A stretch of 64,000 bases of DNA from Aphrocallistes beatrix (lineage: Eukaryota; Porifera; Hexactinellida; Sceptrulophora; Aphrocallistidae): assembly GCA_963281255.1 (NCBI GenBank), contig OY725488.1, positions 3,681,925 through 3,745,924 on the forward strand, given 5' to 3'. The notes under the pieces were generated by a model. That model searched no databases. It was not told the DNA's origin and worked only from the letters and a program-made list of their open reading frames with translations. Numbering within the stretch: the stretch's first letter is position 1; each line of letters starts with the position of its first letter. The position numbers and the translations under genes were made by a program. Shown here in pieces: positions 397-61,905 of this stretch.

Positions 397-3300
397 TTGG
401 CTGTTCTAAATCAAACAAATCTACTTACATACGTTTTGTATGCAGTAAGCTTACAAATATGTGTTACAAATACAATGTTTCCATATGATTCCAACCGGAG
501 TGTATTTAACCTGACAATTTTACGAGACCCGCCGATTGTTCATCGAGATTTTAGTCAATATGATATCTTAATGAAAAGTAATTGAGTGTTTGTTGACGGA
601 AGACTATTTATATATAATACATCTTATTTAGTAATATACAAGATTCAATCCATGGCTTCTCCTGATGAATTCACCCGTGCCCTTCTTCAGTTGGGATACA
701 GGGATTTCGGGACCGTGAAACTTGCTCTGGACAAAGGATGTAGGAGTAGTCCGAAGTCTATCTGGGGGAAATTATCAACTCTAATATTTGGGAAAAACAA
801 AGACTCAAAGCGCAATTCCCTCTCGATCAAATGGAGAATGAACCGAGCTAACTTTCAGCAGCTCGTTAAATCAGGACTTGAAAAAGTTACTCCCAGCAAC
901 AGTAGTAAGCCCATTACTAGCTATTCTGATATTCCCTGTTTGGCCATCGAACACATCTCTCCTAAATTAGAATCAGCTCCTTATTATAATGATAGTTTAG
1001 ATCTCAGTAGTAATAGGTTTCGTGAATTAGTTTTTAGTAGTAATAGGTTTCGTAAATTAGATTTTAGTATTAGTAGTTTATAGAGAGTAGTGTTTGATGA
1101 CCAATTTTTAGCATTGTTGGCATCTGGTTGTAGAGATCCTGGCCTCCATAGTATGAGGATTGCAATGGCTTCATCCCCTCCTCATTCAGGGACCACTGAT
1201 ACTCACCATTGGACCTACGCTAACTGCGATAATCTGTTATGGTTGAGTGCAGTCAATTTTTTGGCTTAGACTGCCCCTATATTAATGGCGAGTTTATTCT
1301 AGTGAATGATGAACTCTACGAAAGTTCCCATAAGTTTAGCGATCTTTTGTTCGAAAATTTTGAACATGTTAGTTTAGTTAAGGGAAATAATAGTCTACTA
1401 ACTGCCTGGGTATTGGTTGAAAAAATACGTTGTCAAGTGTTGGAACTTTTTGACAATCCTATATATTAATTCCTGTTGAAAAACTAGAATTGTTAGTTAA
1501 TTTTATCATGTCAGCACGAGATAATTTGTGCTTATTAACATCTTTTCATTTATCACTTACTGAACTGATTAAGTGTAATTCTTCTGTTTTCCAACCAACC
1601 TCGCTGCCTACTGATTTGAGTCCAGCTGCAGATATATTGGATATAACACCAGATATTAATGTTATATCCAATATATCTGCAGGTCCTGAATTGTTTGTAA
1701 CACTAGGAGATGATGCTGTCGTCAATGAAATTATTGTTGAAGACGAATTAATTTGCAATGAAAATCGAGGTGAATTTTTAATTGGCTTAGATGAATGGAA
1801 TAAGGTTTGCCATATTAAGGGCGATTCAGTCATATTTTCAAAAGACTGGACTAACTTGTTTAATTCCAAATTAGAAGGAATTGTTATATGCGTACTTAGT
1901 TTTAAATACAAAAGAATTAATAAGCTGAATAGTAGGAAAAATAATAACTGTTTTTTCAGAGCGAAAGCTGAATGTAAATTCAAAAACTGCCTCAAGTATA
2001 CTTTCACAATTAAAAAGGATACATTTGAGCTTAAACCTAATAACTATATAGTTGTAGAATATCTAGTTTCTGGTTCCTTATCTGAGGAGCATTCGGATGA
2101 CAAAATTGTTCATTCTCGAAATTTATCAAATACACTTAGGTTAGAAGTTGCAACACAATTGACAGAAAAATCCATAAGTAAATACTTTTACAATCAATTC
2201 GAATTAAGTAAGAATACTCAATTTGCCCTTAATAGCGGGAATTTTAATAAAATAAAAAGTGCATCTGTTCTTAGAAAAGCTAAATTTGATTTGTCTAGCT
2301 TACAAAGATATTCAAATGATAATTGGAGTGATTTGATTAATTTGCAGCAACACTATCAGGAAACTTTAGTTGGTTGCCATGTAAGGGGTTACATCCAGTA
2401 TTTGGGACATAATTCTTTCATTATTCATCTGTACACAGAAGAACAAATAAACTTTTTGAAAAGTTTTAAAAAAACAAGTATAATTCTCCATTTAGATGCT
2501 ACCGGGTCAATTGTTAGAAGGATTGAACCCTCTCAGAAAAAGGTATTTTACTACGCTTTAACTGTACAACACCCTACTTATACCACTAGCCCAGTCCCCC
2601 TAGCTGAGATGATCAGTTCATCTCATACTAGTGCTGAAATAAGCTATTTCTTGCATAAATGGTTCCTTGATGCCAAGAAAATTTTATGTGGAAATTTTAA
2701 TATAGGACAAATAGAAGTAGATTTTAGCTGGGCTTTAATTCGCAGTACTTGTAATGTTTTTCTCAATTGTAACATAGAAAGCTATCTTGATACTTGTTGG
2801 AATTGCTCAGGTTTAAACTCTTCTGTTAAAGATTTAAACGTTATTGTACATTTATGTTCTGCTCATCTAATGCACGGCATCGGATTTCACATAAATAAGA
2901 AATTTAAAATAAATAAAGATGTAAGGAGACTATTTCTACATGTAATAGGATTTATGGTGCGCTGTACTGAATTATCTAAAATAAATGATATATTTAATTC
3001 CTTATGTCGAGTATTTATGAGTAAATATCTTGATGAATCAGTTTTGTCTAATATTGATAAGTTAGAAACTTACATTAGTGAGGATTCCCAAATTTCACCT
3101 GATATAAGTAATAATTTAGAAACTGATATAACAGATACCAATTCAATAATAGATAAGGATGTTAAAACTTATAAAGAGAAGTCTCCATTTGGTAGACATT
3201 TCGTAAAAATAGCCAGAAATTGTCAAGATGATATCAAAAATACCATTTCCAATACTGCCGAAAAATTTGATTCAAATATTTGTTATCATCCTGATATCAT

Positions 3301-3860
3301 AGAATATTTATTAACTTTCTATTTGCCAATTTTACCATTATGGAGTGGAATTATATTAGGCCCCAAAAGTATTTCAGTTGGTAATAATTACTCACATTAT
3401 AGTAACGCAACAGTTGAAAACTGGATGCGTATTCTTAGGTTAGACATTTTAAGATCAAAAACAAATTTGAGGCCTGGGGATCTGATTAAAATATTGTATC
3501 CAAGTATTGAAAGTAGGATTTCAGCCTTTAACTTTGCTTTCCATCCTAGAGCAACTAAAGTATTTTAAAATCTTAAACGCCCAAGAGACGTTTCAGAAGA
3601 ACACTGTAGTGAAGAGTGGTCAAGGAAAAATAAACGTCATTGTGGTTATTTAAATTCAAAACAATTTAAATTCTCTCTAAAAAATAAAACTAAAAGAGAA
3701 AATACATATAAAAATAATATAGATAAAAAGAAAATATCTAAATTTATCCCAAAGAAGCGTGAAAAGTTGTCAAAGCTACGTAAGGATATTGAAGTAACTG
3801 ACACAAAAATAGCTTCCGTAATAACTGATGACGAAATAATTGAAATAGGAATTGAAGTGG
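397..3860 (+). pseudogene. Decayed DDE (MULE-like) transposase gene with start of an OTU-protease tail
   Basis: The main open stretch is 1490-3568 (692 codons). Open pieces at 397-585, 586-1083 and 1239-1469 look like its broken N-terminal part. In the main stretch, CFFRAKAECKFKNC (about residue 155) resembles a zinc-binding entry domain. HLDATGSIV (about 333) gives a first acidic residue, EVDFSWALI (about 407) a second, LCSAH (about 457) a Cys-x-x-His motif, and NATVENWM (about 640) a likely catalytic Glu. This order is that of MULE-like DDE transposases; the superfamily name is inferred. After one in-frame TAA the same frame continues to about 3860 with a basic linker whose motif SEEWSRKNKRHCG closely matches SEEWARKLKRHCG in the OTU gene at 40402-42235. 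The tail is cut off before the OTU catalytic core. Role inferred: transposition; this copy is dead. Confidence 0.7.
1626..1682. repeat. Perfect 22-bp inverted repeat inside the transposase frame
   Basis: Arms at 1626-1647 and 1661-1682 (CTGCAGATATATTGGATATA...) are exact reverse complements around a 13-bp loop. The segment is 57 bp, 19 codons, so it does not break the frame. It lies in a region without conserved motifs and may be a small foldback insertion. Confidence 0.85.
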
Positions 3861-6204
3861 TTCACTACCATTTTTGTCCCACTTTTTGAGTGGCGAAAAT
3901 TGACAAAATTTCCACTAAAAGTGGCATGATATTTTTTCAAATCGAGCAATACTGTTGAACACCTCCCGTTTATTTTTTCACATCGGTTCTTAATTATTTA
4001 ACCTTTTAATGACCTTATTCTACGATTTTCACAACTTTTATTCTCCAAATTTAGTTTTAAGTCATTTTCAATGGGAAGAATCCAACTTTTCGACACTACC
4101 CTAAACCGATGCACAAATATCTAATATAGGAACCACAATAATTGTCCTTTTAAAATAAAGCAATATATAAATTGGAAGCTGATCCCTTAAGGAATACAAT
4201 GGACAAATTGAAAATATCCTATTTTCACTCTCATTTGAGATACAGATTTGGGACGAGAACTTTTGGAATGCCCTATGTAAATAGATCAACGCATTATTAA
4301 TTTTAAGAGATACCATTTTGTTGTTAAATATTGTTTTTATTTCCAAACATTAAAACCGTCTTATCACACAATCATTCAATTATCACTATTCTTTTGATGG
4401 TTTTAGATTTGGATATGATGACAAGATGACTCCTCGACTTATTTTCTGTTTATACATTCCAGAAATGATTGACGCATTTCACAACGAAGATGATTACTAC
4501 CTTCTTGTTCTGAGAATTCGTATCTGTATTAACCCTTGAAAGCATTTGGGATTTTTCTATTTATAGTAGTAACCCCAAACTTGTATGGCTTCCCCATTGA
4601 AAATGGCTTAAACCGGAAATGACGCAACACATTCCTGTGGCAAGCGTGGGTTAATGCAATCCAACTTTTATTTCAAGCTGACCGATGCGACGTTAACATT
4701 TACTTCTGATTATTCATTTATTGATTTGTTTGAACAGTTTGCTCATGCTTGTTTACATGTTCTAATATTGTTTTTATGCATAATAAAAATTGAGATTATA
4801 CATACTGTGTCAATTTAAATACGTTACTCAATTAATCTGGACAACTTGGTTCCGGAAATTTTGTCCCGATTAAGCAGGGATTCCAATTAACCGTTGAAAT
4901 TTAGTTTTGGCTTATAAGTATGGGGACCATTCCGTTCCAGGAGACTTGTCCCAATAATCGGTTGTCCTGATTGACCGATTTCCTCCAATTGAGCATATTC
5001 ACTAACATTTCAAATGTTCATAATTCTTTTAAAAATCAATATTTTGAGACAATATTTGAAATATAAAATAGATCGAAACGTAAATAAATGTGTTCCAAAG
5101 GAAATATTTCTAGCATCAATATTTCAAGAGTTTGATGGAAAAACTGGGGCAAATTATTTCTATGTGATTTATATTGCAAAAATTCAGACGTTAATAATTT
5201 TCTCAAAAGTTAATATTTTTGTTTGAAAATTAAAATGCGGAATACCCATTTTGAGAAATAAGTGTCATCCAAAGGAAAAACTATTTCTTCCAATTACTTT
5301 CAGAGATATTCACAAAAAACTGAGACAAGAATTCACTTTCAAAATGCTAAGTCACCTTAGGAAATTTGACACATTTGAGGCGTTTTATGAAATACCCAAA
5401 TGCTCTTCTTTACACTGGTATAATTATTTTTAACATAGAACGCATACTTTTTGAGTTATTTGCGTTTTAGTGAGGATTTTGAATCCGTCGCTGAATCCGT
5501 CGCTAAGATAACACTCGTGCATTTTGGTCTCATTTTAAAAATCAACCCATAACTTGAAATCCGTTGAATTTGAATTGTCTATTCATATCAAAAGGTTCAC
5601 ATTTGAATACCTAGTTGTACAATATGGCCTAAACTGACAAAATATATTTACCATAGCAACGTAGGAATGTAGCACCATTCCATTGAAAAAAATTAAATTT
5701 TCAAATCAATTAGTACTAATCTCGGTTTTGCACATAAATCATACCTTAATAATATTTAGAAGTAGGATCCATACATGATTTTGTAAGATATTTCACAAAA
5801 TTTACAATTAAATTTGTTAGATGTTGTATTAGTTTTTTGGAATTTATTTGTAAAAATATACATCATTATGCATACTTGTCAACATTATCAGATTTTTATC
5901 ACTTTATATGATCTATTTCTATTTTTCGGCAATTTTTATATTTTATAGTAATCAAAACAATGCAAAAATAAAAATATAAGTATGGTACTTGTAAAAAAGG
6001 AAAATAGAATTAAAATATAGCCTGTTGTAGGTGTTAAATAAATAATTGAATACTATTTTGAGAAATACCAATAATGATCAATTTTAAACACAATGAATAT
6101 GCCCATGCAATATAATAATGGAGTATAATTTATATACTAATCGAAAGTTAATTTGTGTAAACGAGTATAAAAATACAAAAAGATAGAATTACATCAGTGA
6201 TTAC
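3861..6204. other. Intronic DNA downstream of the second PKC exon
   Basis: No exon or protein motif was found on either strand; the short open frames near 4.1, 5.0 and 5.3 kb are AT-rich and featureless. 4828-4990 is a degraded pogo-like short element with iterated motifs of the type TTGTCCCGATTAA, related to 22491-22661. 4530-4650 resembles, in inverse orientation, 13970-14100. About 5490-5790 is a fragment of the CATAGCC foldback family. The next PKC exon was not found here and may lie outside the window. Confidence 0.5.
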
Positions 6205-7845: not shown

Positions 7846-7895
7846 GCCTAATTTGAATTCATAAAGTAATTAAATAAATTTTCAAATCAAGTTAA

Positions 7896-10676
7896 GGATA
7901 CCGCCCTCGAAAAACCATATGATTTGGCTTACAGCATAGGATAAAAGTAGAGCTATAAGAGATGTTAAGCGTGGGCAGGTATCTCCGTCAAGAAATATTC
8001 GCACATCCCAAACCGTTTTTCATTCTCCTTTCTAGTTTTTGAGATACAGTGTCTCAAAGTCTGTTTTTTTCGTTTATCGCTAGCACATTTTAATGGTAGA
8101 AATCCGGTCACTCAAGTAATTGTTTAGGACATACCAAGGAAACAAATGCTTCTAAAATCAAAAAATAGATAGTATATCATATTTGCCACTTCATAGGACC
8201 AAAAGAAAGTTAAAATGACAAAAATTGCAAATTTTATCAGTATACGAAAAAAAAGGAGAAAAATGTCTGTTTTTTGGGAAATCAGGAATCACCAAGTTAT
8301 AAGAAATCGAAAATAATGTGGTCCTACGTCCATCGCTTAATGATATGGAATAACTCTTGAAAATTTCAAACCTCTATCTCAAACCAATTTTGAGATAAAA
8401 TCTGGAAAGACGGTCAGTTTTGAAATTTTAAAGTCCCGAGATATAGAGATTTTAAGTTTGGATGTTAAGAAGAATGTAAAATGAGTTATTAAAAATGAAC
8501 AAAAGCATTCACAGACATTATTCACATTTACACTGCTGATTTAGGTATATTTGAACCAAATATTTACATAAAATAGCAAGAGTACCCTGAAAATCCACAA
8601 ATTTACTTGAGCCCCCTAACCCCTAATATTTTGAGATAAATGTTAATAATAATTCATATTCCTAGCACTACGAAGTATAATCTATCAGTTTAGAATGAAT
8701 AAAGAGCTTCCAAAAAGTATATTAGGAAGTTAGAGCGAAAGTCTATGACTTATAGTTTCCAAGTTAGGATTTTCAAAAATGCTACGTCATCATACGCTAA
8801 AAATCTAAAACTTACATTCCATAGGATGTAGTGTAATTATTATCAATGAATCATAAATGTACCCTCATAAAAAGTATATTAGGAAGTGAGAACTAAGAAT
8901 TTGGGCATATAATTACAACGATAGAGAGATATCTCTTTTTGGACCCTAAATGGGGGTTTTTGAACGAAAATAATTATCAAAAGTTTCCAATTTTTCTGGA
9001 CACATTATTAGCGACAATTGTATTCAATATTTGCATAATAGCCACATTTGGATACATGTTTAATGATTAGATTCGGCATTTTCTAATTTATTGAAAGTTC
9101 TCCATAGAATTAGTATTACAATTAAATCAATGATAAGTCGATAAATATTTATTTTTTGACAAAGGATTGTTTGAGGAACCTATATACTTTCGCATATATC
9201 CTTTTATTTAAGATTATAATATATTATATATCTCCAATAGATTTTAAGGTATGACATCGGCCTCTTTCGGGAACATAGAGAGATATTATTCCCGAACTTG
9301 ACCTATAATATGTAAAATATCACGAACAAATGGTCGGATCCGAACAAATTTTTTTCTTGAAATGATCAGAATTTTATTTCTGATCCAGTGATCGCTAAAT
9401 ATCTGATATCAAACAGGCGATTTCCCGAGCATTATATAAATGAACTCCCTTATAGAGCTATTTTGTTTGGATTTTATTTGGCCATTCTAAAAATTATCAA
9501 ATAAGTTAAAAACTAATTGGTGAATGCGTCAAAAACCTCCACTAATTTTTAGTAACGCTAAACTTTAGGAGGTTAACTCATAAAAATCAAAATAAATATC
9601 GTCCAACTAGCACTATCTAGTGGTGCGGCATAGCAAACAATTGTGCATTTTGTGATAAAAGCACCAAAATTGGTACACATGTAGTACATTGAAATACTAT
9701 GAACATTTTTGGATATTGGACCACATGAAACGATGTCAGCAATGACAGCTGGCCCCAAATTATCACGTCCAATAGTATTGCCGGAATTGTCCTCTATCAT
9801 TAACTTCTTTTAATCACACCAGATCATATTTTGATTGTTAAATTCGTGTCCAGCACAAAATTTCCAGCAATTTGATATATGTATATATTGACCATATTTG
9901 GAGAATCTTTTAGGTTGCCCGTTCCTAGCAACGGCCTGGAATGTTGAAAAATTCCTAATTAAATTTTTGAGGAACCATATCGAGTGACCCCTTGTTCTTC
10001 TCGGCTAGGTTCAGCGAGTACGAATATGCTAATTAGAACGCTCTGATATATCATATATAGAATATATAAATGTTTTAGCACATTCAACAATACCTTCCAC
10101 TATGGCATACCACAAAACTTTCATATACTCCACATATGACATATCAGAGCATTCTAATTAGCATATTCGTACTCGCTGAACCTAGCCGAGAAGAACAAGG
10201 GGTCACTCGATATGGTTCCTCCAAAATTTGGAGATCGGAATTTTTCAACATTCCTGGCCATTGCTAGGGACAGACAACCAAAAAAATTCCTCAAATATGG
10301 TCAATATATATATCAAATTGCTGAAAATTTCGTGCTGGACACGAATTTAACAATTAAAATATGATCTGTTGTGATTAAAAGAAGTTATTGATAGGGGACC
10401 ATTCTAGCAATACTATCGGACGTGGTAATTTGGGGCCAGCTGTCATGCCTGAAATAGGCATCGTTTCAGGTGGCCCAATATCCAAAAATGTTCATAGTAT
10501 ATCAAAGTACATGTGTACCAATTTTGGTGTTTTTATCACAAAATGCACAATTGTTATAAATTTCATGCTATGCCGCACCACTAATCAGATGGTAGACCGC
10601 TCAGACTCAGTAATACAATGAAATTAACAATAAAAACTTTTTTTTACGCAGTCAAAGTTTTTCGAGGGCGGTATCC
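7896..10676. mobile_element. Family B TTAA element, copy B1 (with nested foldback)
   Basis: Ends are GGATACCGCCCTCGAAAAAC and its inverse GTTTTTCGAGGGCGGTATCC, flanked by TTAA at 7892-7895 and 10677-10680. The body has no coding capacity. One arm starts CATATGATTTGGCTTACAGC and the other ends in the CCTGGCG/AAATTAGC-type arm, recognisable in all copies. A 966-bp foldback is nested at 9618-10583. TTAA duplication is typical of the piggyBac and Kolobok superfamilies; without a transposase I cannot choose. Confidence 0.85.
9618..10583. mobile_element. 966-bp foldback element with 3-bp ATC target duplication
   Basis: Terminal repeats TAGTGGTGCGGCATAG are perfect at both ends, and ATC flanks the element at 9615-9617 and 10584-10586. 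Other B copies show the uninterrupted target (TATCAGATGG). The two halves are inverted copies over about 400-450 bp with a loop near 10030-10140. Mirror-image open frames at 9573-9800 (minus) and 10388-10621 (plus) are products of this symmetry. The arms carry a module shared with family A (CAGCAATTTGATATAT and CCTAGCAACGGCC). A 3-bp duplication fits PIF/Harbinger-type integration, by inference. Confidence 0.85.
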
Positions 10677-10683
10677 TTAATTA

Positions 10684-16508: not shown

Positions 16509-17236
16509 TTAAAATGTGTCGTTTTTAGAGCGAGACCTGGTGATACAAGTAGCTCCAAGTGGCGAAATATTGGCATTGGAGTTATAAAAATCGAAAATAA
16601 TATTGAGAACCCCTATAAGGATCAAGAAACGATAAAAAAAGCACTTTGGGGAAATTTTTATAAAAAACAAATGTCCCATGGGAAACACCACCCTTAAGGA
16701 TTCCGCCCTCGAAAAATCTTGCCTGGCGTAAAAAAAACCAGCAAAATGTGTTATTGCTAATTTCATTGTATTACTGATCGGTCTACCATCTGATAGCACT
16801 ATTTGAACGGCATTTTCTTTCATTTTTTGCTAAATAACCCCCTAAAGTTTAGCGTTAATAAAAATTGAAAAATTATTAGAGGATTTTAACTCATTTACCA
16901 ATTAGTTTTTAACTTATTTGATATTTTTTTAATGATATGAACCTTAAAATTGTTTTAGCACCTTTGGAGATTATAAAACACAAAGATTTAAAAGATTGTG
17001 CAAATAAAATCCAAACAAAATAGCTCTATAAGGGAGTTCATTTATATAATCCTCGGGAAATCGCAAGTTTGATCTCAGATATTTAGCGATCCCTGGGTCA
17101 GAAATAAAATTCTGATCGTTTCAAAAAAAAAATTTTTCAGATCCGACCATTTGTTCTTGAGATATCGCATATTATAGGTAAAGTTCGGCCATAATATCCC
17201 TCTAAGGTCCCGAAAGAGGCTGATGTCATATCTTAA

Positions 17237-17353
17237 CCCGAGCACGTCCAGGAATGTTGAATTGAAAGTGAAAGTTAATTGAAAGTAAACTGAAAATGAA
17301 AGTGAAAGCTGGGTCATTTCTATTTATACCTTTGACCCCAAGTAATCCTCGGG
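17237..17353. mobile_element. 117-bp TTAA mini-element, copy 1
   Basis: Starts CCCGAGCACGTCCAGG and ends ATCCTCGGG, flanked by TTAA (17233-17236 and 17354-17357). The inside repeats GAAAGT/TGAAAG units. It interrupts B2 at a point where other B copies have TTAAAAACTATT. Confidence 0.85.
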
Positions 17354-18143: not shown

Positions 18144-18260
18144 CCCGAGCACGTCCAGGAATGTTGAATTGAAAGTGAAAGTTAATTGAAAGTAAACTGA
18201 AAATGAAAGTGAAAGCTGGGTCATTTCTATTTATACCTTTGACCCCAAGTAATCCTCGGG
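18144..18260. mobile_element. 117-bp TTAA mini-element, copy 2
   Basis: Identical in sequence and orientation to 17237-17353 as far as I can read, flanked by TTAA (18140-18143 and 18261-18264). Identity of two copies 0.8 kb apart indicates recent movement or conversion. Confidence 0.85.
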
Positions 18261-40857: not shown

Positions 40858-40899
40858 TATTTCTATAATTACTGCTTTGATAAACAAATTTTGTCTTAA

Positions 40900-42971: not shown

Positions 42972-43158
42972 CAGTCGACTCCGCTTAATTGGGCCACTGT
43001 TTAATCGGGTCAACCGCTTAATTGGGCCACTTTTGGTAGGACCAGAATAGCTCTCACACATAGAAGCTAATATAAAATATTTTCGGTTAATAGGGTTCTC
43101 CGCTAATCGGGGCAAAATGTTCTCTGACCGATGTGGCCCTATTAAGCGGAGTCGAATG
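42972..43158. mobile_element. 187-bp pogo-like element, TA target
   Basis: Begins CAGTCGACTCCGCTTAATTG, ends TTAAGCGGAGTCGAATG, with TA at 42970-42971 and 43159-43160. The end motif CGCTTAATTGGGCCAC recurs inside three or four times. Confidence 0.85.
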
Positions 43159-45015: not shown

Positions 45016-45487
45016 TATTCGATATCTCAAGAACAAATGGTCGGATCCGAAAAAATTTTTTTTTTGAAACGATTAGAACTATATTTCTGACCCAGTGATC
45101 GCTAAATATCTGAGATCAAACTTGCGATTTCCCGAGCATTATGTAAATGAACTCCCTTTTAGAGCTATTTTGTTTGGATTTTTTTTGCCCATTCGTTTAA
45201 ATTTTTGTGTTATATAATCTCCAAAGCTGCCAAAACAATGTTAAGGTCCATATCATTAAAAAATATCAAATAATTTAATAACTAACTGGTAAATGAGTCA
45301 AAACCTCCAATAATTTTTCGATTTTTATTAACGCTAAACTTTCGGGGGTTATCTCACAAAAAATTAAAAAAAATATCGTCCAAATAGTGCTATCAGATGG
45401 TAGACCGATCAGTAATACAATGAAATTAGCAGTAAAAATTTTGTTTTTTTTAAGCCAGGCAAGGTCTTTCGAGGGCGGTATCCTTAA

Positions 45488-46192
45488 ATGCACTACTCCC
45501 GCAATTTTATACCTTTGATTTGAAAAGAAATGAATTGTACTGATTCTGGAATAATTTGACTTTATTTGCTTGTTTTATTTTAACATTTCGTCATTTAAAT
45601 ATACATATTAACCATTAGTGCATAAAAAACGTAAGAGAGCACAAATTCGTCTCAAGGTATATCTGCACGTAAGAGAGTCGCATTCGTCTCATGGTATATC
45701 TGCACGTAAGAGAGTCGATCTGCTTAGTATTATCTCCAACACGTTATCCTCTGAAAGTATTAGATATCTAGCTTATCGTATTTCGTGAAAGTACTCTACT
45801 GGTAGCTGTAATAACCTATCAATACAAAACTTTAGCGGAACAGTTGGTAGATTATGACTTACCTACCTGGATGTTTATGATTCAATTACGCTACATTAAA
45901 GAAATGTATTGAAATTTGGATTTTGATCAAATTACTATTCAATTTGCTAAGTGATAATAATAGAATGATTCATAATTAATCATTGTTTCAAAAATAATTA
46001 AGTTTAAAAGAAATAAACATTGTAATTCCAATCAAGGCTGAAAATAGATTTTTAAAAACTTTGTAATCGTTTTTCAAAACATAGTTCTAGTTCAATGGTA
46101 TTTCGATCGTAATTTTATCTCTCAATAACAACTATTCCCGAACTAATGAGGAAATCTTAATGTGAGTTCAAACCAAATTAATAAGGTTCAAG
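45488..46192. repeat. Unassigned DNA with a short tandem repeat
   Basis: 45630-45722 has about two and a half copies of a 37-38 bp unit (CGTAAGAGAGTCGCATTCGT, then CTCATGGTATATCTGCA). Nothing else recognised. Confidence 0.55.
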
Positions 46193-46445
46193 CATAGCCT
46201 ACTCTAATAATGCCTCACAGTAAAATAACCAAGGATGCAGTAATAGCCGAATGGATTAATACACGATTAGCCTAAAATCGTTAACAATGTAGAATAGGCA
46301 TTAAGAATGTATTACCAGCATATATAAACATGGTATCAAAGTACATATATCCGTTGGAAAAATTTCGATTAGTCATCATATCATTGCGCAACTTGTCATT
46401 CTAAGGACAATTTTTGCGATTTTCCAAGCTGTTTTAACCCTATTT
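46193..46445. mobile_element. Partial family D element
   Basis: Starts CATAGCCTACTCTAATAATG and follows the same order as the complete copy just downstream, then ends after TTTTAACCCTATTTTT. Right half missing. Confidence 0.7.
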
Positions 46446-46714
46446 TTTTACATATCAATATAACTCACACTGATATCTCCTTCAAAACATATATATATGA
46501 ATAAATCTATTAGTAAAGAAAAATACCTATAAGCAGTTGAAATGTTCTCACAACGAATGCAATGAGTTGTAAATACCATCTTAGTAATCAATTGAATCAG
46601 TAATATAGTAATTCATAGCCTACGCTAATAATGCCTCACAGTAAAATAACCAAGGATGCGGTAATAAGATAAGTACACGATTAGCCTAAATCGTTAACCA
46701 TGTAGGATAGGCAT

Positions 46715-47237
46715 TAGGCATCTTGCCTGGCGTAAAAAAAAACGTAAAATTTTTTATCGCTAATTTCATTACTGAGCGGTCTAGCATCTGATAGTACTAG
46801 TTGGACGGTATTTATTTTGATTTTTATGAGTTAACCCCTTAAAATTTAGCTGTACTAAAAATTGAAAAAATTATTGGAGGTTTTTGACGCATTCACCAAT
46901 TAGTTTTTAACTTTATTTTGATAATTTTTTTATGATATGGACCTTAACATTGTTTTGGCACCTTTGGAGATTATATAACACAAATATTTAGAAGAACGGC
47001 CAAATAAAATCCAAACAAAATAGCTCTACTATAAGGGAGTTCATTTATATAATATTCGTGAAATCGCTTGTTTGATATCAGATATTTAGCGATCATTGGA
47101 TCAGAAATAAAACTATGATCGTTTTTTTAAAAAATATATTTCTTGACGGAGACACCTTTCCACGCTTAACATATCTTATAACACTACTTTCATCGTATGC
47201 TGTAAGCCAAATCATATGTTTTTCGAGGGCGGTATCC
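46715..47237. mobile_element. Family B fragment (B8)
   Basis: Left end truncated (starts near CTTGCCTGGCGTAAAA); right end TTTTCGAGGGCGGTATCC before TTAA (47238-47241), where family D sequence resumes (AAGAATGTATTACC). A central part is deleted. Confidence 0.75.
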
Positions 47238-47835
47238 TTAAGAATGTATTACCAGCACACATAAACATGGTATCAAAGTACATATAACCGTTGTCAAAAT
47301 TTCGATTAGTCATCATATCATTGCGCAACAGGTCATTATAAGCACGATTTTGGCAATTTTCTAAGCTGTTTTAAACCTACTTCTAAATGTTATTAAGGTA
47401 GAATTTTTGTGTAGAACTGCTGCATAGATTTTTGACCCCCATAGAATTATGACCCCCCTTAATAGAGACACCATGGATACTCCAGTGGGGGTCATTTTCC
47501 TATGCATCAGCATAGAAAAATGACCCCCCTTATACTGAATACTCATTCTTTACCTAGCAAATCACACTAGCATCATGAATCATCAGATGCTTATCATCAT
47601 AGTACTTACCTCTACACATTTCTGCTTCAAATGTGAACACATTTGATGACAATTATTACTACTACGTAGTTAGAAAATTATCATGTTGAATACATTAAAA
47701 TTCGCTTACGACACTCTTGTGAACCTCAAGAGTAATTCGGTGCTAAACAACATATACAGAGATCACCCCAAAATTACGTTCCTTAAACAATATATTAACT
47801 AATAAACTGAATAATTAACATCTACTTGGAGAGTA

Positions 47836-49555
47836 ATGGATGTAACTGAACATACTGAACTATGTGATTTTTTATTGCATGAAAAATACCCCGATCGTGT
47901 GGATACTAAAAATCTAAAAAGAAATTTCAGAAGGAAGGCGTCAAAGTATCATGCAAATGAAGAAAGGAGACTTTATCAAGTAAGTTCAATGTATATTTAT
48001 AAACTGATATACTATGTATGCATTCGCATTTTAATTTTACTTCATTAAAAATTCTATTATTTGCTAGAAGGTTCAGGTTCAATGTGGAAACGAAAAAGTC
48101 CCATTAAAGGCCAAAATACCCGAGATCCTAAGCCTCTATCACGACTCCCATCAACCTGGCATTAATGCTACACTAGCCAATATTCGCAGGGAGTACCACT
48201 GGAAAGGAATGTATAATGAAGTTGAGCAATATGTAAGAAAATTTTATATACTATGATTATCTTTAGAATTTGATTTGATACAGTAGGAATTGGATATAGT
48301 GATACCGTGGAGACATAACGTGGATCACATTATTATAATACATCAATGTTTACCCAGGAGCGCGGTGAAATTTTAAATATTTTCATACTGTTTTAAGAGT
48401 ATTACAATTTGTGAGGTTACAATGATCGCGTGCTGTTTGCTGCATCCAATGGATATATCTAATATCTACAGTAATTAGCTTACGAATTAGAAAATTTACT
48501 TGTCGTATTTAGACTTGAGAATTAGCGCATAGTTTGAGTCGATAAGCTTTGGAACCTTTTGTTTAGGTACAAACATGTGACATAGGTACAAACATGTGAC
48601 AAGGTTAGTTAACATTTCCACGAGTCGTTAAAAATAGTAAACAGGTCTACAGCTGCGTATCACCCACAGAGCAACGGCCTTGTGGAAGCACACAATAAGA
48701 TATTGAAAGTGTAAGTTATGAAATACTTGAGAAAAAAATCACATTTGTTTTTCGAAAACATTCTAGCTCTATGCTCTCTATAAACATAATTGAAAAACTG
48801 TAATTATCAGAACAATCCGTTTAGTAAGATTGATAAGTTTCGCGCAAATGCAGATGTTGAATGGCCAGATCGAACACAAGAGGCTTGTTTTGCTGCGAAT
48901 ACGCACTTGAAAAAAGCTACCAAGGCTACACCCTTCAGGTTAATGTTTGGGCGAGACTTTAACCCGGCTTATCTCTTTCACGCTTCAAATGCTGATATGG
49001 ATGACTATACTACTTCTGAGGATGAACCTTTGATTGAAGATGAGACAAATGAGTGCATTTATGAGCCAGCAGAAGATCCAGATGAATGGACCGAAATCAA
49101 GGACAATCAGCGAAATGTTGACATTGAAGTAGCCTCTAACAACATCAGGCAAGAACAAACACGACAAAAGCGAGTATATGATAATAAAGTTCAGCAAAAC
49201 AGGTATATTATAAGACTTAATTTGATGCTAAACTATTTTCTGATAAATACAAATTAGCCCAGTACCTATCTAGAAAATACTTGTGGTTGAAATAAATCAA
49301 TTAAAATACACTTGAGTAATATAATTTATGCTCCCCTTTAGATCAGATATTCAAACGTCAGATCACATACTAATACGTAATATATGCAAAGATAAGAGAC
49401 TACCTGGCACAAAGACACAACCAAAGTACTTTGGGCCATACCCTGTGGAAAAAGTTACAAAAGGCCATATTGTTGTTTCCAAAGATGCGAAAAAATCAAA
49501 ACATGTCCCACTCCATCTTGCTAAAAAGTATATGCAATGCAATACTCAGGTATAA
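47836..49555 (+). pseudogene. Spliced Ginger-type integrase, core partly deleted
   Basis: Likely exons: 47836-47979, 48068-48232, about 48645-48708, 48811-49202 and 49342-49555, each with GT/AG borders. Exon 2 has the zinc-binding half YHDSHQPGINATLANIRREY, with YHWKGM. Exon 3 has AYHPQSNGLVEAHN, the last catalytic Glu region of the retroviral-type core. Exon 4 has VEWPDRTQEACFAANTH and TPFRLMFGRDFNP. Exon 5 has a GPY/F module (PKYFGPYPVEKVT). The CxxC half of the zinc finger and the two core Asp regions, expected between exons 2 and 3, were not found in 48233-48640, so this copy is probably inactive. Family role: DNA strand transfer at the element ends. Confidence 0.8.
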
Positions 49556-50066
49556 ATTTATAATTAAACTTCTTACTTTTGGTATTTGTGTATAAAAAAA
49601 GATTCAGCAACGACGGCAGTCAAAACTATCAAAAGAAAGTCAACTACTGAACCTTTAAAATGTCCTAAGGGGGTTGTTAAATTATAATACTTTGATGTGA
49701 CTGAGTAAGGATTTTATTGTCACCATCTTTCATCTAGGTACAATCTCAAACAATGTTTTCCTGCTCTAATTCAAACGAAGAGGAATTAGTCAACTGCTAC
49801 CCTAGTTCTAGTAGAGCATGTAAGTGAACATCTCATGTTATTAGTACTACAATTTTAATTCTAATAACATTACAAATACTTTAAAAATACAAAATATTAG
49901 ATAAAATGGAATGCCTAATAGTAGCATTATTTCTGATTTGGGTGACATTGATCCTCCGTATATCAGGTTCTTTATTTAATCTCGGTTTAGGATTCCTTTA
50001 CGTATTAAGTCTTCTTTTAATATAGTAATAATATCGTTCCTACATTTTATTGGCTACTTTTAACAG

Positions 50067-51266
50067 GTGGAGATGAAAATATACTTACCTACTTCAGAAG
50101 TATTGCAGGATGTTTTAGCTAGCATCAAGCCTAAAATGCTAAATGCACTTCATGAAAAGTCGTTTTTGTCTAACTTACATAGAGAGCTGGATGAGAAATC
50201 GAAGTACATGCGTTTTAACGTCATTATTTCCTACCATCCGAGTACTTGCATTCCTTACGCATTCAAAGAAGAAATAGCTAACCAAGTTAACCAGTGGTAT
50301 ACATAATATCTCGATCTTAACCAAATGAGAACAGATGACTTTTCAACCCGAGACTACCCATTAACAGTACTTTTACCTGTTGCCCTTGAATGCATTAGAA
50401 ATTCCGAAACCATGGAAATCGAATCCGATAGTGTACCAACGTTGTCCAATCGTAACCATCTAGCATCTGATGTCGGGGGTAATTTTCACAACACAATTTT
50501 CGGACTTGAGACTTTATGTCCAATTTGGAATGGAGAATTTGGTGGAATTATACACATAAATACTTGTTCAATAGACAATATGATTTCTTTACTCAGTCTA
50601 CATCAAATAACGATACAGAAGGCTAATGAAATGGCAGCAAACCCACAAAATCCAGATGCTATAAAAATTTTCTCATGAATTCGCAATCTAAAGTTCAACG
50701 AACTTCGTGACTCAATCGCTAAATTAACCGCTATTTCAATCTCATATGATCTTATTGTGCAGACATACGACTTTTTCGGTACTGAATCGAAATTTATACA
50801 ACTACTTCGCGAATTTAATATTTGCAACGACGTATATTACTCTACACTTCAATGTTTTGGCTGCTGTAGTGATTTTACTATTACAGTTCAGCTTGGGAGC
50901 ATCACCTATGTCGCAAGCACTTTACAAACCTGTGTTAATGATAAACTTCTTCCAAAAAAATGTAAAAAATGTCTGGCAACTGATACGAATATCGAACTAC
51001 TCAGAGGTCACTTTCAAGCGACACCACCTTTACTTGTAGTCGAACTTGGTCATCTACCAGAGCTTAAATGTCAGCTGGTGCCTAACGATCTCGACGAATC
51101 TATATACATCACGAATCATAGCAAAACACTTTGCTACAAACTTGCGGGTTATACTCTATTAAACGCCAGCCACTTCTTTCTGCTGATAAACATTGACAAT
51201 GTTTGGTATAAATATAATGACATAATGGCACCTAAACTTGTTGAATGGGGAAAACATTGTTCTTAA
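50067..51266 (+). pseudogene. USP-like (peptidase C19) protease gene in the Ginger-like element
   Basis: One frame of 399 codons is broken only by a TAA near 50304 and a TGA at 50676; all three pieces are in the same phase. In order: an N-terminal part of unknown function; IWNGEFGGIIHINTCSIDNM (near codon 165), a Cys-box with catalytic-type Cys; a zinc-ribbon-like pair, CFGCCSD and KKCKKC; LLVVELGHL; and a His-box YKLAGYTLLNASHFFLLINI followed by WYKYND. The order Cys box, zinc ribbon, His box is that of ubiquitin-specific proteases. A splice acceptor (TTTAACAG) precedes the gene and a possible upstream exon lies at 49740-49820. Expected role, inferred: protecting transposition proteins from ubiquitin-dependent control. 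It is degenerate by two stops only. Confidence 0.72.
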
Positions 51267-52192
51267 GGGAAGTTGAATTCTGCATTTTACATATTACAGG
51301 AAGAAAAAAAGAATTTGTAGTTATTCCCAGCAGACATCGTTAGATTTTAATGGTCATAAGTTAGTTTTGGTGATGATATCATATTATCATGTCCTTAATT
51401 TTGTTGATTAATTAATGCTAGTATTGATCTTAATTTGTTATTTTTGAGAATTTAATACAATAATTAGCGTGTCACGAATGTATTTAGTCAAATTAAATTT
51501 GGTCCCCGAATTCGTACAAACATGATTTTTAGTTATTCTTGAGGTTCACAAGAGTGTCGTAAGCGAATTTTAATGTATTCAACATGATAATTTTCTAACT
51601 ACGTAGTAGTAGTAATTGTCATCAAATGTGTTCACATTTGAAGCATAAATGTGTAGAGGTAAGTACTATGATGATAAGCATCTGATGATTCATGATGCTA
51701 GTGTGATTTGCCAGGTAAAGAATGAGTATTCAGTATAAGGGGGATCATTTTTCTATGGGGGTCATTTTCAATGCTGATGCATAGGAAAATGACCCCCACT
51801 GGAGTATCCATGGTCTCTCTATTAAGGGGGGGTCATAATTCTATGGGGGTCAAAAATCTATGCAACAGAACTAAGATTAGTACGAGTTGATTTGAAAAAT
51901 TTAGAATTTTTCAATGGAATGTTGCTACATTCCTGCGTTGTTATGGTAAAGCATTTTGATCAATTTTGAGCCATATCCTGCAAACTGTAAGAACTAGGTC
52001 TTCAAATTTGATCGTATTAGATAGGCAATTGGCTACTTCCTATTAGGTAATAATACAATTTAAACTCCTAAATTCACAGACTAAAGAGTTATGCGACAAT
52101 TTAGTGTTTTGGTCACATTCTTAAAATCAACCCATAACTCAAAACTCATTGAATTTAGAAGTTCAAGTTGTATTATCACTTAATAGGAAGTA

Positions 52193-53459: not shown

Positions 53460-53790
53460 GTGATAATTTCGCCATTTATAGTAGCTCAAAATACAATCGG
53501 GTCGCTCAAAGTAGCCACACATGACATAAAGTCAAGAAAGGCGCCACTTACAAGAACTCCAGCTCGCCAGCTTTCAAATCCTGAATTCGTCTGCACAAAA
53601 ATTCCTATGAGCTACTGTATTAAAATGGATCGAAATGGTATAGCATGTCGCTGTTGTGTAGTCGATGTAGTACTACACCCAACCTCTACCATTAAAGGTA
53701 GGGTCACATAGGGAAAGAATGGGCACAATATTGTGTGCATAAATGGTGTCCACTCTCCAAAACTGGTGATCATTATTAGTTGCATTGATC
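53460..53790. other. Region between family D element and Helitron gene
   Basis: The plus frame 53460-53711 has no motif. Read on the minus strand, 53770-53680 may continue the OTU-like tail (SFGEWTPFMHT). Confidence 0.3.
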
Positions 53791-53791
53791 A

Positions 53792-53977
53792 CTAAATAAC
53801 TAGATGCGCAAGAGCACCTAAAATAGCTAATTCTACATTTGTACCCCATTCGTTTGGAATGTTGATTAGCTCAAAATAATCGTCCAACTCCTCTTCACTT
53901 GTAATGCCTGACATGTGCATGACATTTAAGGTGTGTTCTGGACTATTACGGAATTTTGTAATCAATTTTGATTTCAA
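53792..53977 (-). pseudogene. Probable OTU protease remnant at the Helitron C-terminus
   Basis: Motifs LDDYFELINIPNEWGTNVEL and ILGAL match the pattern W-G-x-x-x-E-(I/L)-x-A-L that precedes the His region of OTU domains; compare WATDLEIFA in the gene at 40402. It follows the helicase part with a one-base shift. The Asp-Gly-Asn-Cys half was not found. OTU domains are known in some animal Helitrons. Confidence 0.5.
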
Positions 53978-55587
53978 ATCGTCTCATAGGCTGCAATCAA
54001 CTCCATGTCGATACAAATGGCTAACTGAGTCCTCATGTTAAGTGAGAAGCGATTGACAGTACCTGTTGGAGATACTGCTGCTCTAATAGGAATTGAGGGT
54101 TGACTGGGAGCTGGATCCCTGTCATCTCTGTCATCCTTAGAGCGATTCCTTAAGTCTGCAGTAGAAAATGAAATTTCACTCAATGATATATCCATTTGAG
54201 AAAGATCCATTGTATCATTAAGGGATGGAATGATACTATGGTTTTGGAATACCTCACGGTAGACCACATTCCTAATCCAAACGCCACTCGAAGTGGAATA
54301 GTTTGCTCCGCAAACCATGACTTTCAAGCCCTTAGGGTTCTTAACTCGACTCAGGGCAACGTACAATTGCCCATGACTGAATATAGCATCAGGAGATGGT
54401 AGAAAGATACCAACAGATTCTAGACTCTGCCCCTGCCCTTTGTTAATTATTATACGATAGGCAGGGCGAATGGAAAACTGTTTCTGTCTCAGAACAAATG
54501 GAAAATCTGCTTCAGAAGGAGTCATTATAATGCGAGGAATGAACACTCGTTTGCCACAATGGATACCTGTGGCAATTTCAGCAACTATAACATTGTTTTT
54601 AAATGCTCTAATTAGCAATCGGGTGCCATTACACATCCCATTCTCTTTAATGTTGCCATATATAGCAGTGGCTAAGTCTGCAATAGACTCACCACGTACT
54701 ACATATTTGTGATCTAAATGAATCATGTTATTCACATCATGAGGCTCAGTACCTTCTCCTACCCTCAATAAAAGGTCAGGGAAGTTACTCACCTCTTCAT
54801 GATTCTGACATGAATCCATTCGAAGACGCATAATTATGGTCAATTTCATCACTTTGACATGGTGCCAAAGTGAAGATCTGTTAAGGCAGGCTGATACGAC
54901 AATAGCTCTATCATGGCCCTTATACACATACTTGTAGAGGTATTTAACAGCACTAATTGAGCAAATCTAAATATTTATATGAGCATTGTATTTCAAAAGT
55001 AAATAAGGGTTGTATGGAACAACCCACCTATTGTCCAGCTGAATCCCATTCACAATAACTGTACGGCCGTTATTTCGATGTTTGTACATAGCATAGCTGT
55101 CATTACCGGTTGGGGTAAACTGAGAAAATACTTTGGGGTATTTCTTACTGCATTTTCTATCGCACATACAGGCAGCATGTTTCCTTACAACGCCGCATGG
55201 GCTGTGGATCATGCAGTACTTCACAATATGATAAAGTTTAGGATTGAGATCCTTGTCAGGAATCTCAGCACAAACTTTCTTATCATACATAGTAGGATCT
55301 CTAGGTTAATCCTGATCAGATAGGATGATCAGGAAATGCGTATGAGGGAGACTGCGCGCTTTTGAAACTCGGTGTATACATGCGCGAGTGGTCTCCCTAG
55401 AACATGCTTAACGCAGATGTCATTAAGCAGTTCACGCAATTTCATTCTAAATACTCTTATAGTTATGTATGGACGGTCAGTCGCTTTCTGATTCAATAAA
55501 AGAGCAGAAGAAATATCTTCCCATTTCGGGTTGCATGTAAATGTAATAAATAAATCATGTTTACCGTATTTCCGTACGATAGATATA

Positions 55588-55974
55588 CACTGCCTGGACA
55601 AATGTATTCGTACACTCCATAATTCCCCATACAAATAGTTATAATACTGATTTATTTAGCGAGTCAAGGTATTTAATTGGTAAGAGATACACTTAATTTG
55701 ACTTAAAATTCGAATTCTCCACATTCAAATTACCCACTTTATAAGTTTTCAAATTAATTACTCTTCTTCAAGATTAAGTATTTTCAGCATTTGCTTTCCT
55801 ATGCCACATGTCGCGAGTGATCACCATTGTATATGATATATGGAGAATTCGAATTTGAGGTTAAATTAAGCGTATCTCTTACCAATTAAATACCTTGACT
55901 CGCTAAATAAATCAGTGTTATAACTATTTGTATGGGAAATTATGGGGTGTACGAATACTTTTGTTCAGGAAGTG
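55588..55974. mobile_element. 387-bp Tc1-like foldback element inside the Helitron gene
   Basis: Ends CACTGCCTGGACAAATGTAT and inverse (ATACTTTTGTTCAGGAAGTG); TA at 55586-55587 and 55975-55976. Terminal repeats run about 130 bp (including AGCGAGTCAAGGTATTTAAT). End sequence resembles the Tc1-like element at 39203 (GGACAAAAGTAT). Confidence 0.85.
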
Positions 55975-57511
55975 TACTGTCCTGATAGAGCTCGAACATC
56001 TGTCGAGGACTGCAGTGAAGGAAGAAGGTAGTATGATCCTCTTTCCATACGCCATATGATTGACGTCATCTGCAGATACTGCATCAGCCAGACCTTTGTA
56101 CAGATCTACTCTGATCTTTTCCTGGTTTAATTTTATGTAGTTCAACCTTTGCTGCTCAACTTTAGCGTACATGTCCACGATATAGATCGCTCAGCGAGCT
56201 CCTCATCATCAGGCGGTAAGAGTAGAACTCCATTGCATTAACCTAGCCTTTCCCTCTACTGTGGGGAATGCCCAGGTGCCAGCCGCTCTCTCCTGAAGGA
56301 AACAATAAAACATAATGGAGGCTATCGTATGCACAATTGGTTTCAGTGATACGTTTTAAACCGCCTGTATGTACATGCAGCACTATATCCCTTGTAGCTA
56401 CACCTTCAGTGTAGCCATCTCCAGGCATTATGACTGTTATTTCGGGAGCAGTTGGAGCGTTGTAGCGTCTCGGATCTGGTACACCATCAGCTCTGATGGT
56501 CGTCCTAACGTCCACTTCCCTCTTGTCTCTCATCATATCGACACCTTGTCTGAAGTAAGAGACGTAGAGATTCACTTCATGCAGTAAGTTCTGCAGTTGT
56601 CGCAGCTCGTGGAGACTCGCATCCCCAAGGTGTCGCTGGCGATTCTCCAGCTCTCTCTCAGGAGTTCCATCATGGATGTAAATTTGTGCAAATGAAGCAA
56701 CTTTTCCCGCTCGAGTAGTCGACTGCCCAATGTAATGATGCACAACACCATGGATACGGAATGTGTACACTCCGCGCCTAGCGCAAGCAAAATCTTTATC
56801 GAGATTAACGCCGAGTGAAGCGAACTCTAGAGCCGAGTTATAAGCTCGAATGTGCTCTCTGAATGCTCTGCCTCGACTATCAGCAGCCGTCAGCAGATGT
56901 ATCAGCAGCTCAGGGGGGGAAGGTAAGGCGAGAATAACCACCTTCCCTTGTCCGCAGCAGATGAAAAACTTTTTCAAATTTAGCATTACAATGTGAACAG
57001 TGATATTCCATCCGACCAACTGAAAATTCGTCAATTATCTCATCAGAAGTTTCAGTCACTTGCATAGAACGTGCAATATTAAGAAATGTAAGTTAGTTTT
57101 ACCTCTACTCTTGGCTAACTGATATGTCCTCTGATATCTCAGGCGAACATACCTCTGTAAAGAGTTCTGCTTTGTATTCCTAGCAGTCTGGTACCTCAAC
57201 TGCGCTTCAAGTCGCTCAGCCTTCTGAGAGCTCTGCATCTCGCGATAAGCAGTCTGGTATTCCAGCTGCGGTTCAAGCCGCTCAGCTTTTTCCTGAGAGC
57301 TCTGCTTCGCGTAATGAGCAGCCTGGTATTCCATTTGGCGATTAAGGCGGGCCTCCCTTGCCTCCGAGGTATCACTCAACCGCGCAAATTTCTTACGCTG
57401 CGCATCACTATCAAAACGTTTCTCGCAAGAACGTCCACGTTTACTCTTTAAACGGGGCATTTCCAATGAGAAAAAATTGAACAGAGAACAAAACAAAATT
57501 TTATGATCCAT

Positions 57512-58885: not shown

Positions 58886-59117
58886 TCCCGAGCATTTTAA
58901 AAATGAACTCCCTCATAGAGCTATTTTGATTTGATTTTATATGTTTTTTTTTCTAAATTTTTGCGTTTTATAATTTCTAAAGGGGCCAAAACAAAAATCA
59001 AAACAAATACCGTCCAACTCGTACAATCATATTGTAGACCGCTCAGTAATACAATGAAATTAACCAAATTTTGCCGGTTTTTTTTACTCCAGGCAAGGTT
59101 TTTCGAGGGCGGTATCC
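58886..59117. mobile_element. Family B right-end fragment (B9)
   Basis: Starts CCCGAGCATTTTAAAAATGA and ends TTTTTCGAGGGCGGTATCC before TTAA (59118-59121). Inserted next to the second Ginger-like remnant; it supplies most of the start of the open frame at 58931. Confidence 0.75.
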
Positions 59118-59121
59118 TTAA

Positions 59122-59685: not shown

Positions 59686-60129
59686 CAAGCGCGCTTCGCT
59701 TGCTTGCGCTGCGCGGCTAGCGGAAACTTCATGTCCACCGGAGGCTCCCTTCGGTCGCCTGGGGGTGACATTGGTTAATTATAAGGGAGATATCATCACT
59801 AAATATGTCCATCTTAGTTTGAAAATCGATATCACTCGAAAAATCAGCAAATTTGTCAATTCTAAATTTTTTGATGCGTAGTGATGACGTCATAACAGAA
59901 TGATGAGTCATCATTTTTGATGATAGTTGCATCATATGTGAGGCGTGTTAGTATACAGATTCTATTAAAATTTCAGCCTTCTATCTCCTATAATGGCTGA
60001 GTTATGCCCGAATAACTGTGTTGCTTAACTTTTTGCTCTGAGCTCAGAACTTACTGTAGCCATAGCCAAAAGACTCCCACATGCTAAAAATCAGCTTTCT
60101 GCGCCTGGCAGTTTCTTTAATCAATTCGT

Positions 60130-60850: not shown

Positions 60851-61020
60851 ACCACTCCTTTTGACATGGTTGTTCCATTTAATAAATAATTATGATATTT
60901 GAATGTGGAATTTATTGATGTTTAATTTACAAATCAACATATTACAAGTATATGCACTTTAAAAATGTAAATATAATTTGGGAATTAAAGAAATTGCTTC
61001 GTAGAGAGAAGAAATTTTAA

Positions 61021-61905
61021 ACGCACTTCAACGATGGGCACAAGTAGCATACCCTGGAAAATTCGAAAATTGCAGTTTGCAAAGTCGACAATGCATCAAC
61101 TACCCTCAAGGTTTTATACCAAGTTGTAAGTTAATCATTCTTACTTATTTATCAATGAAAGTATTTGATTGTTTTCGATAAAAAAAATCGTTTTGTTTTA
61201 GATTTGTGAATTGCTGGAAGTGGAATTGATTAGCAGGGAATTTTGGTCAATGACTGAACAATTCCCTTTCAAGTTACCACCTCTATCTAAAACGGGCCAT
61301 TCTATCAGGCGGTTACAGAACAATGGCAAAAGATGAAATGTTTACAACTTGGAGTCACCTTCAAAGAATATTTTGATCAATAATCATCACTGACCGGTGC
61401 ACTATTATCAAAATTTATTCCGTGGCAAACTAGCAGAATTGGGATGGACGGTAACTGTTTTTTTAGATGCCTATCTAAAATTATATCAGGCACAGAAGAG
61501 CATCATGCAAAGCTTAGGGCTGAAACATGTAGGTACTATATGGTGACGAATGGAAAACCTATCATCACTCGGTATCTAAAGACATTTAATAAGGATTTGT
61601 CTACGATTTCCTATATAAATACATCAGCCATGTCTGAAGACGGTATTTGGGCGAAAGATGTCTAGGTAATGGCGATATTGAGCATATTAAATTCTGATGT
61701 TTACATTGCTTCGGAGTAGCATGATCCTAGAAAACTCAACAGATGCGAGTCATTTGGAACAGATACTCAGGGTGTATCGAGTTTATTAGACATCCTAAAA
61801 ATATATGCCTCTATATTTCAAATTCTCATCAACTTCATTATGAGCCAGTTATCCGGCTAATAAACTCAGAATACGATTCTTTCAAATTACAGGACACTAG
61901 CAAAA
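61021..61905 (+). pseudogene. OTU-family protease remnant of the second Ginger-like copy
   Basis: From about 61400 one frame reads FIPWQTSRIGMDGNCFFRCL, with the Asp-Gly-Asn-Cys motif, then EEHHAKLRAE, SAMSEDGIWAKDV, stop, VMAILSILNSDVYIASE, stop. The final HYEPVI (about 61840) is in another frame after SNSHQL. Spacing from DGNC to HYEPV fits a whole OTU domain, about 140 residues. Upstream, 61205-61345 (FWSMTEQFPFKLPPLSKTGH) may belong to the same protein. At least two stops and two frame changes make it dead. OTU proteases are known in Ginger1-type elements. Confidence 0.75.

Follow-up and report, generated by a model that had tools for sequence, protein, structure and literature searches.

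A 64,000-nucleotide stretch of the genome of the glass sponge Aphrocallistes beatrix (contig OY725488.1, here C1:3681925-3745924; hereafter the window) contains the remains of four DNA transposon families: a MULE-like transposase joined to an OTU protease, a Helitron with Rep-helicase and OTU, a Ginger1-like element with OTU, and a Ginger1-like element with a USP-fold domain. A preliminary sequence-only reading had placed deubiquitinase-type proteases on several element classes, and the genome (100.5 Mb in 28 contigs) bears this out, with three classes and two folds, OTU and USP. The protease belongs to the element, as that reading required, because it lies either in one open reading frame (ORF) with the transposase or within delimited ends bearing target duplications. 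Single-ORF fusions, with the protease C-terminal to the transposase, occur in the MULE, the Helitron, and one Ginger-USP lineage; otherwise, the protease is a downstream ORF of the same element. Related Ginger elements carry either OTU or USP and so form a natural replacement experiment, which argues that the shared activity matters. The best explanation of the whole, which we consider probable, is that the protease is part of the mobile unit and would remove ubiquitin or SUMO at the transposition complex; catalysis, substrate, and benefit are inferred.

As the window copies are worn, open copies elsewhere in the same genome (loci with the prefix L) were used for comparison. The window features are as follows.

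586-1083, plus strand: frame-broken N-terminal piece of a MULE-like transposase (ORF; the L022 MULE-OTU ORF matches at 33% identity over 658-1284).
1454-3568, plus strand: MULE-like transposase ORF of 704 aa, from a lineage with long open copies ending in OTU (L022 residues 268-1060 match 1448-3886).
3569-3886, plus strand: linker that precedes the OTU in relatives (L022 match), with no OTU core in this copy.
40405-40785, minus strand: OTU C-terminal half with HYEPV (catalytic His), 73% identical to L022 residues 1166-1249 (match at 40671-40417).
41645-42235, minus strand: MULE linker and OTU N-terminal half with GDGNC (catalytic Cys), 48% identical to L022 residues 954-1134 (match at 42199-41651).
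47418-51867, plus strand: Ginger1-like element of 4,450 bp carrying a USP-fold protease, with ends TG(C)TG...CAACA and a GAAC duplication on both sides.
48790-49257, plus strand: ORF for the C-terminal part of the Ginger element's integrase, 62.5% identical to the matching L043 ORF (E 9e-54).
50064-51263, plus strand: USP-fold (C19-like) protease gene by fold prediction, in ORFs 50064-50303, 50307-50675, and 50679-51263.
53608-56566, minus strand: Helitron Rep-helicase relic, matching L045 ORF residues 2-1496 with gaps (PIF1 E 2.6e-10).
53608-53983, minus strand: C-terminal half of the Helitron's fused OTU, 94-96% identical to an open copy.
61258-61907, plus strand: Ginger-type OTU, frame-broken near 61737, 57% identical to the L050 OTU (E 4e-65; 1.5e-59 in the genome-wide search).

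A protein motif search of the window recovered every motif quoted in the sequence-only reading at or near its given place: GDGNC (41714-41728), HYEPV (40435-40449), and EWGTNVE (53831-53851) on the minus strand and HYEPV (61836-61850), MDGNC (61444-61458), NTCSIDN (50559-50579), and ASHFFLL (51165-51185) on the plus strand. These motifs are beyond chance, since open copies that match the pieces exist at other loci of the genome. None of the window protease pieces scanned passed the curated Pfam cut-offs: OTU pieces scored 18.5 bits (E 0.003; C-terminal half at 40405-40785) and 14.8 bits versus 23.3, and the USP pieces gave nothing. The protease identity of the window pieces rests on their open relatives and on predicted structures. 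The transposon OTUs have an OTU fold with catalytic Cys and His.

Ginger elements with OTU were traced with the L044 integrase fragment adjoining an OTU ORF, which matched all 150 candidates scored of 623. On the same strand, at least 77 of the 150 integrase matches are followed within 6 kb by an OTU and 24 by a USP; among the matches listed, proteases lie on the opposite strand in 0/150 cases and upstream on the same strand in 1/150. The count used 150/150 integrase rows, 136 OTU rows from those listed among 154 matches (excluding MULE copies and most of the second pieces from a single locus), and 97 of 113 USP rows (second pieces dropped), and the label OTU or USP denotes the nearest downstream protease within 6 kb, without a copy-by-copy check. 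At L044, Pfam recognized the OTU (4.5e-11), and the integrase fragment matched rve at 1.4e-6 (29.0 bits, under the cut-off of 32.6). The Ginger-like integrase proposed beside the OTU at 61 kb was not recovered, the best of 48 Ginger integrase rows giving only E 0.06 at 59735-59779, although relatives of this OTU do adjoin an integrase elsewhere (e.g., integrase at C18:1899108 and OTU at C18:1901858). No relative of the L050 OTU was found in the viral contigs searched. One Ginger-OTU, at C11, was delimited by terminal inverted repeats (TIRs) whose first 20 bases are identical, with GTCC on both sides; its twin at C4 was not delimitable because another repeat has taken the place of its low end.

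The Ginger element at 47-52 kb in the window carries a different protease. Its inverted repeats (47412-47735 and 51533-51873) are 92% identical, and Ginger integrase queries found no integrase core within it in the window. The protease gene is interrupted by in-frame stops after 50303, 50675, and 51263, and the region 50109-51305 is 51% identical to a 448-aa ORF of L043 (E 1e-127). The sequence-only reading guessed a C19-like domain here, correctly according to structure prediction, even though Pfam is blind to the domain: there was no USP-family match at E 1 for L043, L051, L052, L053, P0018, or P0022, and a PDB profile search with the Ginger USP gave no sequence-level match at E 10. The domain is a USP fold, as settled by predicted structure where profiles failed, and it is termed USP-fold because neither PF00443 nor any other sequence profile matches. 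The predicted fold is that of human USPL1 and USP30/USP12/USP46 (PDB) over residues ~177-442, with the NTC Cys box and the His box in order; identity to human USPs is 10-17% in the listed alignments, and the Ginger USP differs from them in being transposon borne.

Ginger-USP copies at C7 (GTCC/GTCC) and C3 (GCAC/GCAC) are 98-99% identical and have TIRs of ~300 bp. Locus L052 combines in one 911-aa ORF an H2C2 domain (Integrase_H2C2, 2.3e-13), rve (1.4e-12), a candidate GPY motif, and the USP, both Pfam matches being above the cut-off; its GAAC duplication flanks the outermost of several candidate ends. Read by eye, the site of the GPY/F motif is LGPYNV in L052 but IGPM in L003, L004, and L006. 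Set against the TGTNR of Ginger1, the ends of the C7 and C3 copies begin with TGTTG and those of L052 and C11 with TGTTT, whereas the window element has TGTTG at one end and TGCTG at the other. All five delimited Ginger elements have a target duplication of 4 bp (GTCC, GCAC, GAAC, GAAC, and GTCC), none of them CCGG or CCGT/ACGG, and the elements are named Ginger1-like because of this difference. The five delimited elements therefore place the protease inside the mobile unit, and OTU and USP bearers are alike in the type of ends and of target. At L053:879-3317 (minus strand) and P0022, another architecture unites part of a Ginger integrase with the USP in one protein, together with a Cys-rich stretch and a PHD- or RING-like finger, the finger matches being below Pfam cut-offs; the ends of the L053 element are ambiguous.

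As described in PMC2836005, Ginger1 resembles the present elements in its Gypsy-like integrase, H2C2 and rve domains, TGT...ACA ends, 4-bp duplication, and C-terminal protease, OTU being one of the two described; a YPYY motif is among the traits named there. The elements differ in target (CCGG or CCGT/ACGG in that description versus GNNC here: GTCC, GCAC, and GAAC) and in TIR length (40-270 bp versus up to ~320 bp here). The proteases given in PMC2836005 are OTU or Ulp1 only, whereas some lineages here carry a USP-fold domain. The C-terminal OTU or Ulp1 of Ginger1 is thus found only in the OTU-bearing lineages, with USP instead in L043, L052, and others. A Trichomonas vaginalis protein in the same paper likewise joins peptidase C19 to a DNA transposase, but from another transposase family (Transposase_11, pfam01609) and in one protein, with no ends given in the part of the paper concerned. 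Among the matches listed in open-licence literature, there was no earlier account of a USP-fold protease in Ginger or of OTU/USP alternation.

The 704-aa MULE transposase ORF has at least 70 matches in the genome (63 of 431 candidates scored). Its open-frame relatives are 1,006 to 1,272 codons long and 37-56% identical, and that of L022 encodes 1257 aa (L022:523-4293, plus strand). MULE-OTU queries found no OTU match in the window downstream of the MULE at 586-3886, though transposase and linker are kept. The OTU at 40402-42235, which the sequence-only reading related to this transposase, is the tail of a MULE-OTU gene but is on the minus strand, comprises the tail only, and is broken between its halves; MULE queries found no transposase part beside it in the window. 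Membership of the MULE superfamily, which is defined by 8- to 11-bp target duplications and TIRs, follows from 9-bp duplications in L042, L047, and L048 and inverted repeats of ~840 and ~1,090 bp. The TIRs are long tandem repeats, and copies are identical over 5.5 kb. The signature of MULE transposases is a DDE RNase H core with C-x2-H before the E; D464, C509/H512, and E695 are kept in all six rows that reach them, the first D lying within an HLDxTGS consensus. The MULE-OTU ORFs scanned gave no Pfam transposase match, and the structural model of the transposase part was weak (mean pLDDT 51), with a fold search of that model listing OTU matches only.

OTU in a MULE had already been noted in the cnidarian MuDR-6_HM group, annotated “Ovarian Tumour Gene” in Table 1 of PMC6446971. 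There, the TIR is given as “None” and the duplication is not indicated, whereas the present elements occur in identical copies, have long TIRs of tandem repeats and 9-bp duplications, and carry a WQxxKC segment ahead of the OTU, the comparison being by description only. In the same table, Rehavkus (9 bp) and Phantom (8-10 bp where indicated) resemble the MULE-OTU elements in duplication length and minisatellites but have no OTU listed, and Rehavkus is described with a PHD finger, which Pfam did not find in the MULE-OTU ORFs scanned here. Nothing beyond the MuDR-6_HM group (PMC6446971) was found for MULE-OTU among the matches listed in open-licence literature. In the L022 protein, residues ~160-265 (WHGNNCD...FFGLECP) are an N-terminal addition that Pfam does not match and that the window copy shares. 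A further MULE fragment at 29115-29310 (minus strand) is 75-85% identical to the first 67 residues of the L022 MULE-OTU protein.

The open Helitron at L045 encodes, in order and in a single ORF, Helitron_like_N (7.6e-59), PIF1 (8.4e-79), and OTU (1.1e-6) by Pfam, and thus has the Rep (HUH) and PIF1 domains that mark a Helitron; open frames reach 1,970 codons. No AP endonuclease and no VTD-type domain appeared in the Pfam scan of L045. The OTU-like half reported behind the Helitron helicase in the window is the tail of the fused OTU, but residues 1314-1370, including the catalytic Cys, are lost, among other parts. Helitrons and Helentrons with OTU or VTD deubiquitinase domains are described in PMC9741609 and PMC6431247, with the Rep-helicase plus OTU arrangement of L045 and of the relic in the window. 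This architecture is already known, and there is nothing new for the Helitron OTU itself.

The MULE and Ginger OTUs share more than the catalytic core. Both have a WQxxKC segment 40-odd residues before it, and a comparison of pre-core profiles gave a probability of 95.8% (P 8e-9, 25 columns), with 30 column shuffles reaching at most 1.6%; in the same comparison, the Helitron pre-core gave no match and lacked a WQxxKC-type segment. A tree of MULE and Ginger OTUs only (nine rows each, unrooted; L065 was grouped with Ginger, its element itself not being determined) split into two blocks with 100/100 support. These sequence comparisons support an extended OTU module common to MULE and Ginger. The shared module and the two blocks suggest that the OTU was exchanged once, long ago, or came from a shared source, and was not captured independently several times. 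The sequence-only proposal that element classes independently gained or exchanged their enzymes is thus supported only in part; within Ginger, an exchange that this reading did not include, OTU and USP appear to replace each other. The Helitron OTU, which is more distant and without the shared segment, may be a separate gain. A joint tree with host OTUs and Helitrons was discarded as too noisy (host branches of ~6 changes per column); in it, MULE OTUs fell in two groups, though one clade was not rejected (approximately unbiased [AU] test, p 0.30), and MULE and Ginger as one clade was likewise not rejected (p 0.24) but not recovered with support either.

The OTUs of MULE lineages L022 and L047 have a dN/dS of 0.21, and six pairs of close Ginger-OTU copies have values of 0.38-0.54. 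Near-identical MULE copies gave transposase ratios of 0.71-1.22 from few changes, and such close pairs say little. USP pN/pS was 0.28-0.62 in 28/28 pairs of eight rows, figures limited by synonymous sites near saturation. The OTU and USP values indicate purifying selection and fit proteins that would have been kept active, and lineages as little as ~30% identical still have the catalytic residues.

Alternation between OTU and USP was placed on integrase trees from 48 rows, fetched for 40 chosen matches rather than all of the at least 101 with a protease. In a 42-row tree (27 OTU, 15 USP; 104 columns; L052, L053, L054, L082, L083, and L109 omitted), starred branches force at least two OTU/USP changes, and a single change occurred in 0% of 200 bootstrap trees. 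A 47-row tree (L053 omitted), which includes the distant L052 lineage, requires three changes, one of them forced by starred branches, and again 0% of 200 bootstraps gave a single change. The USP Gingers could instead form one old clade, the repeated changes being noise of short integrase sequences. In the AU test, the 15 USP rows as one clade gave p 0.0525, and the 104 columns and many open forks also leave room for this reading (two groups picked after seeing the tree gave p 0.007). We regard it as unlikely, given the forced and needed changes, the bootstraps, and L052, likewise a USP bearer, whose integrase shares ~33% identity with the L044 one; even a single clade would amount to one replacement between Ginger lineages. 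Protease replacement in more than one Ginger lineage is therefore likely, not proven, on these alignments. Because related integrases carry OTU or USP, folds that share only the type of activity as far as recognized, activity seems to be what is kept. It is conceivable, though we advance it tentatively, that Ginger has a slot for a ubiquitin- or SUMO-removing enzyme, filled by unrelated, interchanging folds (OTU and USP here, Ulp1 elsewhere), with an extended OTU module common to MULE-like elements, and that the activity, not a particular protein, would be a working part of transposition.

Under the preferred explanation, the protease would be delivered in cis, fused to the transposase or encoded by the same element, and would remove ubiquitin or SUMO from the tethered transposase or integrase as well as from host proteins present at the transposition complex. 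A longer-lived complex and altered repair at the cut site could result, either because the transposase is shielded from degradation or because ubiquitin or SUMO marks at the break are edited; ubiquitin-type cutting itself may help the elements move. The sequence-only reading had conjectured that the enzymes stabilize the transposase or block ubiquitin-based silencing. The protease might instead act as in viral polyproteins, freeing parts of its own transposase fusion, with ubiquitin removal incidental or absent. Protease and transposase do share one ORF in MULE, Helitron, and L052, but the protease is a separate downstream ORF in L044- and L043-type Gingers (genomic ORFs, for which splicing to the integrase is possible), and an exchange of folds would require the cleavage sites to match. 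Typical OTU and USP enzymes cleave behind a ubiquitin-like tail. Self-processing is quite improbable. Transposons of these classes capture host sequence, so the proteases could be passengers, captured host deubiquitinase exons that hitchhike without gain for transposition. Host-like USPs and OTUs are present in the genome, and close OTU copies are only mildly constrained. Such passengers would hardly be expected to keep catalytic residues to ~30% identity, the low dN/dS between MULE lineages, or a place downstream within 6 kb of at least 101/150 integrase matches; moreover, the Ginger USP is too distant from known USPs for Pfam, suggesting an old capture. A passenger role is very unlikely.

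The targets may also lie outside the complex, in ubiquitin-dependent silencing or DNA-damage signalling, as for viral deubiquitinases, with fusion serving only to deliver the enzyme to chromatin. Ubiquitin and SUMO regulate repair, a point raised by Bao et al. in 2010 (PMC2836005), and the VTD paper (PMC9741609) suggests a way past a restriction of transposon inheritance through the male germline. As fusion in cis favours targets at the complex, distant host targets are a less probable but serious option, and removal of ubiquitin or SUMO at the complex is retained here. That some transposons carry such proteases was published in 2010, with OTU described for Ginger1 and Helitrons and Ulp1 for Ginger1 and MULEs (PMC2836005), and Bao et al. 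proposed a role of the ubiquitin pathway in transposition, mainly in repair (PMC2836005). In 2022, the VTD paper suggested that Helitron transposition proteins are protected from the proteasome and described transposon OTUs as not yet assayed for activity (PMC9741609). The role of ubiquitin or SUMO removal in transposition can be tested on matched, open copies that moved recently, with 5.5 kb of full identity in MULE-OTU and 98-99% identity in Ginger-USP.

The sequence TTAAGGATACCGCCCTCGA ends inverted repeats around the OTU at 40-42 kb and occurs at 3/109 loci. These repeats were rejected as ends of the OTU element and assigned to a separate TTAA-ended repeat family. The sequence occurs 12 times in the window, on both strands with ≤3 mismatches (0 expected from shuffles), at 7892-10680, 16694-18865, 23323-25047, 36393-47241, and 59103-59121; the copies are mostly facing pairs, being the ends of a repeat family beginning TTAA. 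A 415-aa ORF at 33762-35009 (minus strand) matches DUF4371 (E 2.4e-18) and is presumably hAT/ZMYM-like. Outside the window, C17:3630818-3668145 holds at least 13 PF00443 (USP) matches and small pieces, all on one strand within ~37 kb, which look like host genes in tandem.

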